From: a virus
Length of the DNA: 49,810 nucleotides
Virus record (IMG/VR): IMGVR_UViG_3300048919_000090
Location: 1 to 49,810 of that record
Reading direction: 5' to 3' (one strand)
Shown: in pieces, positions 12,624 to 49,810 of the stretch
Layout of the letters: the number at the start of each line of letters is the position of its first letter
How positions within the stretch are numbered: the first letter of the stretch is position 1
Program-made: the position numbers and the translations under genes
The notes under the pieces: generated by a model
What the model saw: only the letters and a program-made list of their open reading frames with translations
Database searches by the model: none
What the model was told of the DNA's origin: nothing

Positions 12624-12879
12624 TACCCCGTATCAAATGGCATACGGGGTATGATTTTCGGTTAAGCTAACTTACTGTTTTACTTACTATTACTACTACT
12701 TTTACCTTAATACCCTGATAAAATCTTATTTAATAAGAAAGGGAATTAACAAGATACATACAATAAAAATATACATACTTATAAGAAGAGTAGGGAGGAG
12801 TAGGGAGGAGTATCGGGGTACGGGGTAAGAAGTGCCTTTTTGCTATTCGAAACAGTAAGTTACGTTAACCGAAAATATT
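12624..12879. repeat. Duplicated non-coding module, copy A, with long inverted repeat
   Basis: No gene lies in 12518-12949. This stretch holds a hairpin TACCCCGTAT/ATACGGGGTA (12624-12633, 12642-12651). It has 26-base inverted arms at 12655-12680 and 12850-12875 with two mismatches, and an AT-rich core. It contains several CGGGGTA elements and a GGAGTAGG tandem at about 12789-12809. Blocks such as TACTATTACTACTACTTTTA and ATACATACTTATAAGAAGAG recur at 45.75-45.87 kb. It lies between divergent late and early units. Origin or regulatory switch is an inference. Confidence 0.8.
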
Positions 12880-36010: not shown

Positions 36011-36356
36011 TTGTTTCAGTCACCGTAGCAATTCCATATTGGGTCAGGACACTCGCCGTGACCGTGAGTACCCGCGCATTAACATCCGGGAAATCTAACT
36101 TAAAAGAGGTGAGACGTATAACGCCCGGTGTAGCGGCAATCCGGTTACGCAACACAGCCTCGCGTGCCGACATGTTAACGCCTTTACCGAGTATCTGTTC
36201 AAACCAAGGTGTGCCATCGGTAATGTCACGGAAATACTCACCAAGGAACAACCGAAGACGGGTCCGAATGGTTTGTTCTATTTCCAGTTGAGCGCCAACA
36301 AACATTACACCGCTGGTAACGATATCACCGCTTTCATCAAGTAACCGTACGGTCAT
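36003..36356 (-). CDS. Baseplate wedge protein, gp25-like
   Basis: 117 residues. 'IRTRLRLFLGEYFRDITDGTPWFEQILGKG' is the conserved core of gp25/W-like wedge proteins, followed by 'LRNRIAATPGVIRLTSFKLDF'. It overlaps neighbours on both sides by a few bases, in the usual spike - gp25-like - gpJ order. Confidence 0.82.
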   Translation of the reverse strand: MTVRLLDESGDIVTSGVMFVGAQLEIEQTIRTRLRLFLGEYFRDITDGTPWFEQILGKGVNMSAREAVLRNRIAATPGVIRLTSFKLDFPDVNARVLTVTASVLTQYGIATVTETNG

Positions 36357-37075
36357 GTGCGTGGGGTCCCTGTAATGTTGCCATTCTCATCGTGGCGGTG
36401 TGATTCGTATGGTATACCGGTAGAGCCAGTAAAGCCGCCACCAGCAGGAGCAATGATTTTACCCTGTGGCGTGAACACTACACCGTTAATAACAGCGTTA
36501 CCATTGGCAAGTAACTGAATAGAGCCGGACGCATTAAGCAGGTTAATCAGACCGTCCATACTGATGTTTACACTGGCCTGAGCATTACCCACCGCAACCG
36601 AACCGTCATTCTTAAGCCATGCATACTGACTACCATCTTCATTACGTAACTTAATACCGTTGTTACTGAATGACTTGATGACATTTGGCAAAGAACGAAT
36701 GCCCGGTACAAAAACAGCATCCTGTTGATTGTGAAAGCGTGCGGCAGGGTTATCAGCTGTACCACCTGTTTGCTTCCACGCGTCAATACACCGCTGACTG
36801 AAATGAACAAGCCCTTCACAACCAACATCAATCTGGAACTCGACAGTAAAGCCATCACCCGGAAAAGATACGGGGACATCTACAATGGGAGCAGGCACCC
36901 ATGCAACACCATTGATGTCCACGCGCTGGATACCAATCTGAATCTGAGCGCGTTGTGTCTTCGGGTCGAACGCCAGCACGTGTCCCGGAATGGAGGTGTA
37001 AACAGTTTTCATACTCTCAGCAAATGCGGTACGTTGCACCTGTGAGCCTGACGCTCGTTTAGTGTTGCTGGTCAT
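36353..37075 (-). CDS. Baseplate central spike (Gp138/gpV-like)
   Basis: 240 residues. The N-terminal OB-like domain 'TSIPGHVLAFDPKTQRAQIQIGIQ...VPVSFPGDGFTVEF' matches Gp138-type spikes. A beta-helix-like Asn/Gly/Ser region follows. The end 'GIPYESHRHDENGNITGTP' has the H-x-H of metal-binding spike tips. It would puncture the outer membrane during tail contraction. Upstream on this strand lies the non-coding RNA region. Confidence 0.85.
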   Translation of the reverse strand: MTSNTKRASGSQVQRTAFAESMKTVYTSIPGHVLAFDPKTQRAQIQIGIQRVDINGVAWVPAPIVDVPVSFPGDGFTVEFQIDVGCEGLVHFSQRCIDAWKQTGGTADNPAARFHNQQDAVFVPGIRSLPNVIKSFSNNGIKLRNEDGSQYAWLKNDGSVAVGNAQASVNISMDGLINLLNASGSIQLLANGNAVINGVVFTPQGKIIAPAGGGFTGSTGIPYESHRHDENGNITGTPRT

Positions 37076-37122
37076 AACAACCCCGGAATACTGACAATGG
37101 TGAAATAATACAGGAATGACGG

Positions 37123-37152
37123 TTGACAGTCACGTCAAAAGTGCGATAGGAT
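37123..37152 (+). promoter_or_regulatory. Early-class promoter with overlapping operator (site 9), upstream of the ncRNA
   Basis: TTGACA 37123-37128, 18 bp, TAGGAT 37147-37152. The dyad TGACAGTCACGTCA is at 37124-37137, with one imperfect half. It reads right, away from the spike gene, with no protein gene downstream before the terminator. Confidence 0.7.
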
Positions 37153-37158
37153 TTATCT

Positions 37159-37396
37159 TAAGGGTGAGTTCCACTAAGCACATGTGGGTCACGTTGTTAG
37201 CTGTGAAGCTCCTTGTCACGTTGTAGCGCAACGATAAATGACATAATGTGTCAGCCTCCTTCATGACAGGATACGCACTGTGGCGATAAGCGTTGGCGTC
37301 CGGGAAGAGACCGGAGTATTGATGTGAGATGTGCTGACATGAATACCTGCTGTGCCGTTATCGTTGCTTTTGCCCCTTAACCGGGGCATTTTTTTT
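37159..37396 (+). ncRNA. Putative structured phage small RNA
   Basis: About 238 nt from an early-class promoter to a strong terminator, with no gene in it; 37076-37394 is otherwise unexplained. Nested complementary segments: GCAACGATAA (37228-37237) with TTATCGTTGC (37358-37367); TGTCAGC (37249-37255) with GCTGACA (37333-37339); TCCGG/CCGGA hairpin (37299-37315). Also AGCT-GTGA-AGCT with a GNRA-type loop near 37199-37210, and a direct repeat GTCACGTTGT (37188 and 37215). A 14-codon frame at 37182-37226 (MWVTLLAVKLLVTL) has only a distant AGGG site. No Rfam family recognised by eye. Transcription is inferred. Confidence 0.65.
37371..37396 (+). terminator. Strong terminator of the putative small RNA
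   Basis: Stem TGCCCC/GGGGCA (37371-37376, 37383-37388) followed by eight T. Oriented for plus-strand transcription; it ends exactly at the stop codon of the convergent hub gene. Confidence 0.88.
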
Positions 37397-38780
37397 ATTT
37401 AGCGTATTGCTGTCCACGCCTGAGAGAATCATTAACACGTGCCACAGCTTCACCACGAGTAATCTTTCCGTCATAATTTACATCCAATCCGGAATTGGAG
37501 TTATAGACACTGGAAGGAGAGGTGGCAATCACATAACTATCTGGTTTACCAATAGCAACCGGCCAGAACACAGCCATATAGCAATCGCCTAAATTATTAA
37601 TTTTACCTTTGTACTGGTTAAAATACTTTTCCACGTAGTCAAGCTGCTGCACTGCCGTCATGCGTGCAAGTTGTGTCGTGCTGGTGCCCATTGATTTAGC
37701 CGTAGAACTCACAAACTGAATAAGTCCTGTTGCACTACTTCCGGGATTCTTAATGGACGGAGAGAATGTGTAGCCAGTTTCAAAGCCCATGACCGACATA
37801 AGCCATGATGGGTCAATGTTCAGATTTGTTCCAATCTCCCGCACTCTCACACGAAATTCTTGAGAAACACGAGCGCCCCACGCGAGAGCACCTGTAGACA
37901 TGGCTCCCGGTAGTGGGGCAGAGTTGGCCCGCAGTCCATCAATTTCAGTTACCCATAAATTCCCATGAGAGTCACCGCGATGACGTAGTTCAAAAATGTT
38001 GTATTCGCCTGTCGCGCGCGCGTCACCTGCCAGACCTACGACAAAAAGGTTACCAGCATTGAAACTCTGGAATTCTGATTTAATGTTGATGCGACCATTG
38101 ATGCGGAAATAAGGATTTAACCTATTGATAACATAAACCCCAAGTCCGTTCGGTCCGCGTGTCACTTCAGGTACACCAACCATACCTGTGAACTGTGAAA
38201 TTTCAGTGATAGCTGTTGTACGTGCCGCAGTGCGTCGTGTAATGACTAGCCGTCCCCTGTCCTGCACCCAGTCAAAGTTATAGGCCTGCGCAAGCTGGTT
38301 CAGTTCCTGTGGTATATCACCATCCACCATATATCCACTGGTGAGAGCGATATCGGCAAACTGAGACTCATCAATATCTAACGGACGCGGCCACTGCTTA
38401 GCAATATCTTTCAGCACGTCAAGTAACTGCACGCCCTGACTGTACGATGAGTTGAGTGAGCCTCTGTCTCTCACCGGGTCGCCAGACTTGCAAAGAAAAC
38501 GTTGCACCGTGGAGGCACCATCACGCTCTCTGAATGTGTTAGTGACATAACCTTTAAAAATAGTGTCAACCTGATTTGTGTAACCGGCACGAAACTCAAT
38601 AGAGGAGCCTGCATCAACCGTGGAAGTTTTTGCAAGGTTATATATACGGAAGTCACCAAAAGCCAGTGTCTCACCCGGTTTGATGTCAATGTCAAAAACA
38701 ACACGGAACTGATACGCGTCACTTTCGCTGATGTACATTTCACCATTTATGATGACACTGTAAAGACGGCGGTCTGTCAT
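37395..38780 (-). CDS. Baseplate hub fused to lytic transglycosylase with EF-hand loop
   Basis: 461 residues. The N-terminal 270 residues are a gp44/gpD-like hub ('AGYTNQVDTIFKGYVTNTF', 'LLDVLKDIAKQWPRPLDID', 'FDWVQDRGRLVITRR'). From about residue 310 an SLT-like muramidase follows: 'SWLMSVMGFETGYTFSPSIKN' with the catalytic-type Glu and 'ATGLIQFVSSTAKSMGT'. Residues 433-444 'DVNYDGKITRGE' are a perfect EF-hand/dockerin loop. It would open peptidoglycan during infection. Its end abuts the ncRNA terminator. Confidence 0.85.
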   Translation of the reverse strand: MTDRRLYSVIINGEMYISESDAYQFRVVFDIDIKPGETLAFGDFRIYNLAKTSTVDAGSSIEFRAGYTNQVDTIFKGYVTNTFRERDGASTVQRFLCKSGDPVRDRGSLNSSYSQGVQLLDVLKDIAKQWPRPLDIDESQFADIALTSGYMVDGDIPQELNQLAQAYNFDWVQDRGRLVITRRTAARTTAITEISQFTGMVGVPEVTRGPNGLGVYVINRLNPYFRINGRINIKSEFQSFNAGNLFVVGLAGDARATGEYNIFELRHRGDSHGNLWVTEIDGLRANSAPLPGAMSTGALAWGARVSQEFRVRVREIGTNLNIDPSWLMSVMGFETGYTFSPSIKNPGSSATGLIQFVSSTAKSMGTSTTQLARMTAVQQLDYVEKYFNQYKGKINNLGDCYMAVFWPVAIGKPDSYVIATSPSSVYNSNSGLDVNYDGKITRGEAVARVNDSLRRGQQYAK

Positions 38781-45738: not shown

Positions 45739-45955
45739 CGGGGTATTACTTAACTTACTGTTTCTATTACTATTACTACTACTTTTACCTTAATACCCTT
45801 AAAGAATATTAATTAAGATAGAAGAGAGAACATATAGGATGTATGTATACATACTTATAAGAAGAGCAGGAAAGAATAGGAAAAAGTATCGGGGTATGGG
45901 GTAAAAATGCTGTAAGTGCATGACAGATATAAGGAATAGCTTAACCGAAAATATT
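45739..45955. repeat. Duplicated non-coding module, copy B
   Basis: No gene lies in 45646-46030. Conserved blocks shared with copy A: AACTTACTGTTT with TACTATTACTACTACTTTTA and ACCTTAATACCC (45752-45799), ATACATACTTATAAGAAGAG (45847-45866), AGTATCGGGGTAYGGGGTAA (45885-45904), TTAACCGAAAATATT (45941-45955). CGGGGTA elements recur, but the long inverted arms are degraded. Like copy A it sits between a leftward late unit and a rightward early unit. Confidence 0.8.
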
Positions 45956-49521: not shown

Positions 49522-49810
49522 ATGGTACGTAAGGTGTCCCAAGAAGAAAGAGAAAACCAGATACGTAAATTGTGTCAAGGTACTCACTATTCTTTTGTCG
49601 GGTGGGACGGGGAATATAAAATTGGCAGGTCTAAATTCTTTTGTAAATGTCACCTACATGGTGAGTGGTCGACAAGTAGTGAAAAGTTCGTAAACTCTGG
49701 TACAAGATGTTGGGACTGCTCCGTAGAGCGAAACAAACTAAAGTTCACTGTACCGATTGCACAAAGACAAGACCAGATTAACGAACGATGTAAAGAGACT
49801 TCCACGCGGT
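49522..49810 (+). CDS. GIY-YIG homing-like endonuclease, N-terminal part
   Basis: Begins MVRKVSQEERENQIRKLCQG at ATG 49522, with GAGG upstream. It holds the first treble-clef-like repeat 'CKCHLHGEW...CWDC'. The frame continues without a break at base 1 through 771 on the circular map, giving 310 residues with three such repeats plus the nuclease domain. Unlike its paralogue at 41808-42527 it is behind an early operator promoter. Confidence 0.8.
   Translation, partial: MVRKVSQEERENQIRKLCQGTHYSFVGWDGEYKIGRSKFFCKCHLHGEWSTSSEKFVNSGTRCWDCSVERNKLKFTVPIAQRQDQINERCKETSTR
49684..49810. repeat. Terminal direct repeat, right copy
   Basis: Identical to 1-127. Remove one copy when circularising. It lies within the endonuclease coding sequence. 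Confidence 0.95.

Follow-up and report, generated by a model that had tools for sequence, protein, structure and literature searches.

The baseplate genes of the phage described here are separated at one point by a gap of 319 bp, raising the question of what this gap encodes and what its product could do for the phage. The window (i.e., the whole stretch of DNA analyzed, an IMG/VR record of 49,810 bases) has identical ends (bases 1 to 127 and 49684 to 49810), reflecting either terminal redundancy or circular assembly overlap, and, among annotated phages, Pantoea phage vB_PagM_AAM22 (AAM22) is the most closely related to it. The minus strand carries the head, tail, and baseplate genes, with replication genes in between. 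Elsewhere in the window, two diverged copies (83 to 85%) of an AT- and purine-rich segment lie at 12668-12831 and 45751-45907, the former with 27-nt inverted arms at 12654-12680/12850-12876. As for the gap, positions 37159-37396 of the plus strand almost certainly constitute an RNA gene, belonging to a mosaic phage RNA family that is not in Rfam.

Promoter, operator, and terminator in the spike-hub gap

A sequence-only reading of the locus had placed in this gap, antisense to the baseplate genes, a copy of the phage's operator-promoter, no plausible open reading frame, and an eight-U terminator. We recovered each of these, as well as the gap itself, which contains no plus-strand frame of at least 40 aa. 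The elements are located as follows:

36353-37075, minus strand: spike gene
37076-37394: spike-hub gap, 319 bp
37395-38780, minus strand: hub/transglycosylase gene
37123-37152, plus strand: operator-promoter (TTGACAGTCACGTCAA operator, -35 TTGACA, 18-bp spacer, -10 TAGGAT)
37159-37396, plus strand: RNA transcript of ~238 nt, as predicted from promoter and terminator (5′ end set by the position of the -10 element)
37371-37396, plus strand: intrinsic terminator, TGCCCC-TTAACC-GGGGCA (six pairs) followed by eight T

The RNA gene is fully antisense to the late operon. Its promoter is of the sigma-70 type (10/12 matches) and overlaps the 16-nt operator, which is identical in all eight window-type copies of the locus and follows the pattern TTGAC-N6-GTCA(A/G), seen about a dozen times across the window. 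Because several of these operator copies directly precede the primase, methyltransferase, and ssDNA-binding genes, early expression of the RNA is to be expected, with a repressor presumably binding at the operator. Operator-like inverted repeats, which in most copies overlap the promoter, are also found in 57 of 68 distinct regions upstream of related RNAs that carry the same conserved core (TTACC-GGTAA type in 43, TTGAC-N6-GTCA in 12, and another repeat in 2), and the record of phage epsilon15 marks a lysogeny-repressor site, with a repeat of like kind, beside the promoter of its RNA. On these grounds, many phages appear to silence the RNA during lysogeny and to express it in lytic growth, and early or repressor control is very probable.

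Conserved fold of the RNA

In an alignment of the eight window-type sequences, the core is conserved and the arm variable, with the following plus-strand elements:

37179-37250: P1 helix, CACAT (37179-37183) with ATGTG (37246-37250)
37188-37242: branched inner domain, with P2, P3, P4, and a loop
37188-37191/37239-37242: P2
37192-37197/37228-37233: P3
37200-37206 with 37225-37227 and 37216-37219: P4
37207-37215: inner-domain loop, AGCTCCTTG, of a TCCTT type that recurs across clades
37266-37293: H-type pseudoknot, with stems S1 and S2 and a linker
37266-37269/37278-37281: S1, ACAG/CTGT
37273-37276/37290-37293: S2, ACGC/GCGT
37282-37289: pseudoknot linker, GGCGATAA, which is GGCGAUAA-like
37299-37315: hairpin E, TCCGG-GAAGAGA-CCGGA
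37316-37346: variable arm, GTATT...AATAC

Within the core of the eight window-type copies, 99.3% of cells over 35 pairs are paired (versus 89.5% in shuffled alignments), and two-sided changes occur in 14 of the 35 pairs (versus 6.6), amounting to 30 such cells (versus 8.4); sliding the partners destroys the pairing signal. In an alignment spanning two clades, pairing is 100%, with 36 two-sided-change cells against 12.7 in shuffles. Covariation in aligned relatives, which the sequence-only reading had named as a check, is thus present in both alignments, in helices of the conserved core. P1 changes to CTCAT/ATGAG, CGGAT/ATCCG, and CGAAT/ATTCG, and the stem of hairpin E to CTTCG/CGAAG, CCTCG/CGAGG, CCTGG/CCAGG, and GCCGG/CCGGC, while most copies keep a GAAGAG(A/T) loop despite these stem changes. 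S1, which was no part of the model that gathered the 38 distinct pseudoknots, is fully paired (4/4) in 37 of them (shuffled mean, 17; maximum, 25). Among 72 distinct loci gathered with the P1-side motif only, the P1 partner is present in 71, S2 with the GGCG linker in 70, and S1 in 63; this set may partly overlap the earlier one, a few contigs having been returned by both patterns.

The TCCGG/CCGGA hairpin noted previously is the hairpin E of this fold, but the GNRA-type loop claimed alongside it is not: the loop of the conserved hairpin is the heptaloop GAAGAGA. P1 and the pseudoknot, both conserved, had been missed. Two nested long-range helices that had been put forward are indeed exact complementarities in the window, one of ten pairs (37228-37237/37358-37367) and one of seven (37249-37255/37333-37339). 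In relatives, however, both are poorly kept (69% of cells paired for the two together and 61% for the seven-pair helix), and the ten-pair helix excludes the covarying P3; we reject them as the conserved fold. The ten-pair helix, which is part of the minimum free energy (MFE) fold of the window, may be an alternative conformation. This single-sequence fold (-76.5 kcal/mol, versus -65.1 with the nested core forced) conflicts with the core, and the excess of folding energy is modest (z = -1.85 on the plus strand and -1.57 on the minus strand); energy alone would not have settled the conserved fold. That unremarkable energy is what could be said for an accidental complementarity, or a signal in the DNA itself, that has no function as RNA, an explanation rendered highly improbable by the two-sided compensatory changes, the conserved loops, the presence of promoter and terminator, and the homology detected by covariance models.

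The inner-domain loop, of UCCUU type and reading AGCUCCUUG in the window, suggests a base-pairing regulatory sRNA. Of 73 distinct cores, 42 have TCCTT in the inner domain (shuffles, 3.5). This motif matches the anti-Shine-Dalgarno core, such that the exposed loop could block the translation of host or phage mRNAs by pairing with their Shine-Dalgarno sequences. Its own promoter and a poly-U intrinsic terminator, by which Hfq-dependent sRNAs are recognized, are both present in the window, the terminator tail being a possible Hfq site. Nevertheless, the conserved pseudoknot and hairpin E exceed the needs of an sRNA acting through a seed loop, and the loop could instead form a tertiary contact within the RNA; as such, a base-pairing sRNA is a candidate reading only, and a somewhat unlikely one.

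Distribution among phages and exchangeable arms

The promoter, RNA, and terminator are syntenic in the same gap of AAM22 and of IMG/VR relatives. Conservation in relatives, on which the sequence-only reading had staked its claim, therefore holds for these phages but not for several others that share the spike gene and lack the RNA, from which it follows that the RNA is dispensable. In the spike gaps of two relatives (L016 and L073), the same promoter is accompanied by a protein gene in place of the RNA, and in that of a third (L017), almost only the terminator is left beyond the promoter, the RNA being nearly gone; these gaps look as they would for a swap site. Six marine relatives (L059, L060, L066, L077, L080, and L081) have a longer structured gap upstream of the spike gene with a shared GGGAGGTGATCC-like motif, in which the RNA orientation is apparently opposite and the core model has no match.

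Matches in other clades, together with the pair counts above, served as the cross-clade test; covariance-model E values are rough, owing to a short calibration. When window-type copies alone were used for training, the resulting model (R1) retrieved the cores of Klebsiella phage BUCT711, Enterobacter phage Tyrion, mEp390, and the Escherichia coli MS8320 prophage (E of ~1e-6) and gave no further hits across 193 kb; by R1, the core is thus carried by epsilon15-like and HK97-like phages and E. coli prophages. A model built from both groups of cores (R3) finds those of Jedunavirus, Pectobacterium phage PEAT2 (Peatvirus), and KsaM-C1 (4e-9 to 4e-14) and scores the window, a member of its training set, at 154.9 bits. 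The reverse search, with a model of Jedunavirus and epsilon15-type cores (R2), is weak, returning a single window-type copy (L009; E of 0.049) and not the window, and the link between the window and the other clades therefore rests on R1 and R3. P1, the pseudoknot with its GGCG linker, hairpin E with compensatory changes, and a promoter overlapping a phage operator are all found in the window. Synteny, covariation, model homology, and the Rfam scans strongly support the earlier proposal of a dedicated, structured phage RNA that is transcribed from an early-type promoter and belongs to no known family.

The core recurs, without annotation, in many phages and prophages of enteric bacteria. Its bearers come from different groups and carry it in differing genomic places: Jedunavirus has it in the spike gap, epsilon15 has it between terminase and portal with a 3′ part that looks truncated, and mEp390 has it downstream of, and in the same direction as, a LexA-like repressor gene. 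One core-bearing RNA has matches in 1,976 of 5,426 complete E. coli genomes, a maximum for the core itself, given that the query extends beyond it, and none of the places listed has an annotated feature. There was no match among 369 genomes sampled from the class to which a Pseudomonas genome belongs, a search without a positive control and hence uninformative, and the genome contigs contained no prophage with a close relative of the window's spike protein, only distant Pseudomonas relatives.

These placements bear on the proposition that the RNA is a cis element, that is, an antisense transcript that, early in infection, interferes with the baseplate mRNA made from the opposite strand or helps in its processing. 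Its fully antisense position, the retention of the promoter in L017, where little of the RNA is left, and the labeling of the region in the epsilon15 record as an RNase III mRNA-processing site would all suit such a role. With the core located elsewhere in other phages (between terminase and portal, or codirectional with a repressor gene) and the plus-strand fold conserved pair by pair, we consider it improbable.

In contrast to the core, the tip of the variable arm is replaced in relatives, by a tRNA-Leu-like cassette in AAM22 and by a AATGTTGTGAAACAT hairpin in L010. The AAM22 insert has tRNA-Leu-like features by eye, although neither Rfam nor ARAGORN calls it as a tRNA, and the arm shares 91% identity over 91 nt with Klebsiella phages Madison and Magnus (Ackermannviridae), where its counterpart forms the tip of a different stem. 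In Magnus (MN045230), this AAM22-like cassette and other shared modules lie within ~2 kb (~900-2800 of L223) of largely noncoding, hairpin-rich modules with only tiny ORFs annotated. A true tRNA-Arg lies beside or downstream of the RNA in some relatives, and a further relative has an HNH gene in its variable part; HK75 has modules without the core, between Q and holin. The RNA region of Escherichia phage CWW26 includes a 16S/18S rRNA-like segment (L002:3067-3113, plus strand) scoring 38.3 bits with the small-subunit rRNA model, below the cutoff of 50. A Jedunavirus module, GGAGGTGRTC, would be complementary to the 3′ end of 16S rRNA. The window copy has neither this module nor a tRNA-like arm, and any idea of the arms as bait therefore rests on the relatives.

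Possible function and comparison with known RNAs

The promoter/operator, terminator, core, exchangeable arms, and recurrence in unrelated phages are established computationally. The explanation that we favor, at slightly better than even odds (a probability of about 0.55), is a structured RNA that acts in trans, is expressed early under the control of a repressor, and combines a fixed core with bait arms that can be exchanged. It would be made early or on prophage induction, once the operator is free, and would exert its effect on the host in trans, the core by binding a common host factor and the arms, which include the tRNA-like or rRNA-like cassettes of relatives, by serving as interchangeable bait that occupies host machinery or a defense nuclease. 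Because of the fixed core, the swapped and partly tRNA-like tips, and the repressor control, we infer that a trans-acting decoy or host-takeover function fits better than a local antisense element, although we place that specific function somewhat below an even chance. More tentative still is the broader suggestion of a widespread, unnamed phage RNA class constituting a modular decoy platform, in which one fixed core would bear arms, swapped between unrelated phages, that supply mimics of tRNA or rRNA to counter host machinery or defenses aimed at tRNAs. Should expression prove to be early, such loci would amount to a large and as yet unstudied dimension of the conflict between phages and their hosts. 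For finding the RNA, the conserved core yields a covariance model, and the swappable arms offer a direct experimental handle on host or defense specificity.

The earlier impression that the RNA belongs to no known family agrees with Rfam 15, which has no matching family for the window RNA, and we found no description of this RNA family in the literature searched, in which few subscription papers were covered; a search of the literature on RNA decoys and anticodon nucleases returned nothing. svsR, a 77-nt hairpin at the 3′ end of cI, is unlike the window RNA and was set aside. Enterobacter phage CobraSix has an isrJ match (62.6 bits) close to its Q gene (L142:568-641).

With respect to tRNAs, the likeness is confined to relatives that have a true tRNA-Arg adjoining the RNA or degenerate tRNA-like cassettes inside it; the window RNA and the core are not tRNAs, and the AAM22 cassette fails both Rfam and ARAGORN. 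STnc100/PasD and other lambdoid prophage sRNAs (PMC13192938) resemble this RNA in being small RNAs from prophages of enteric bacteria. The STnc100 model has no match on the window or core in Rfam scans, and a subthreshold partial match (30.1 bits; cutoff, 47) falls in a downstream module of Pantoea phage AH07.

A parallel in style is offered by GOLLD and ROOL, ornate phage and prophage RNAs of unknown function with pseudoknots and a variable region that are found near tRNAs (PMC12286853). A similar function, in which the RNA would assemble into a particle and carry or shelter tRNAs or other cargo, is suggested by analogy with that description, the present RNAs being likewise phage borne, ornate, often beside or around tRNAs, and variable at their tips. 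We regard this as rather improbable: the window copy has no tRNA, its length of ~238 nt compares with lengths often above 800 nt for GOLLD members (PMC12286853), and neither Rfam model matches, whether in the window (at the gathering score, or at an E of ≤10 around the RNA) or in 12 core-bearing loci (at the gathering score). The family described here has no match to GOLLD or ROOL in sequence or structure in Rfam scans and differs in architecture, with a core of ~140 nt, while sharing with them phage and prophage origins, an elaborate pseudoknotted fold, a location near or around tRNAs, and a variable region.
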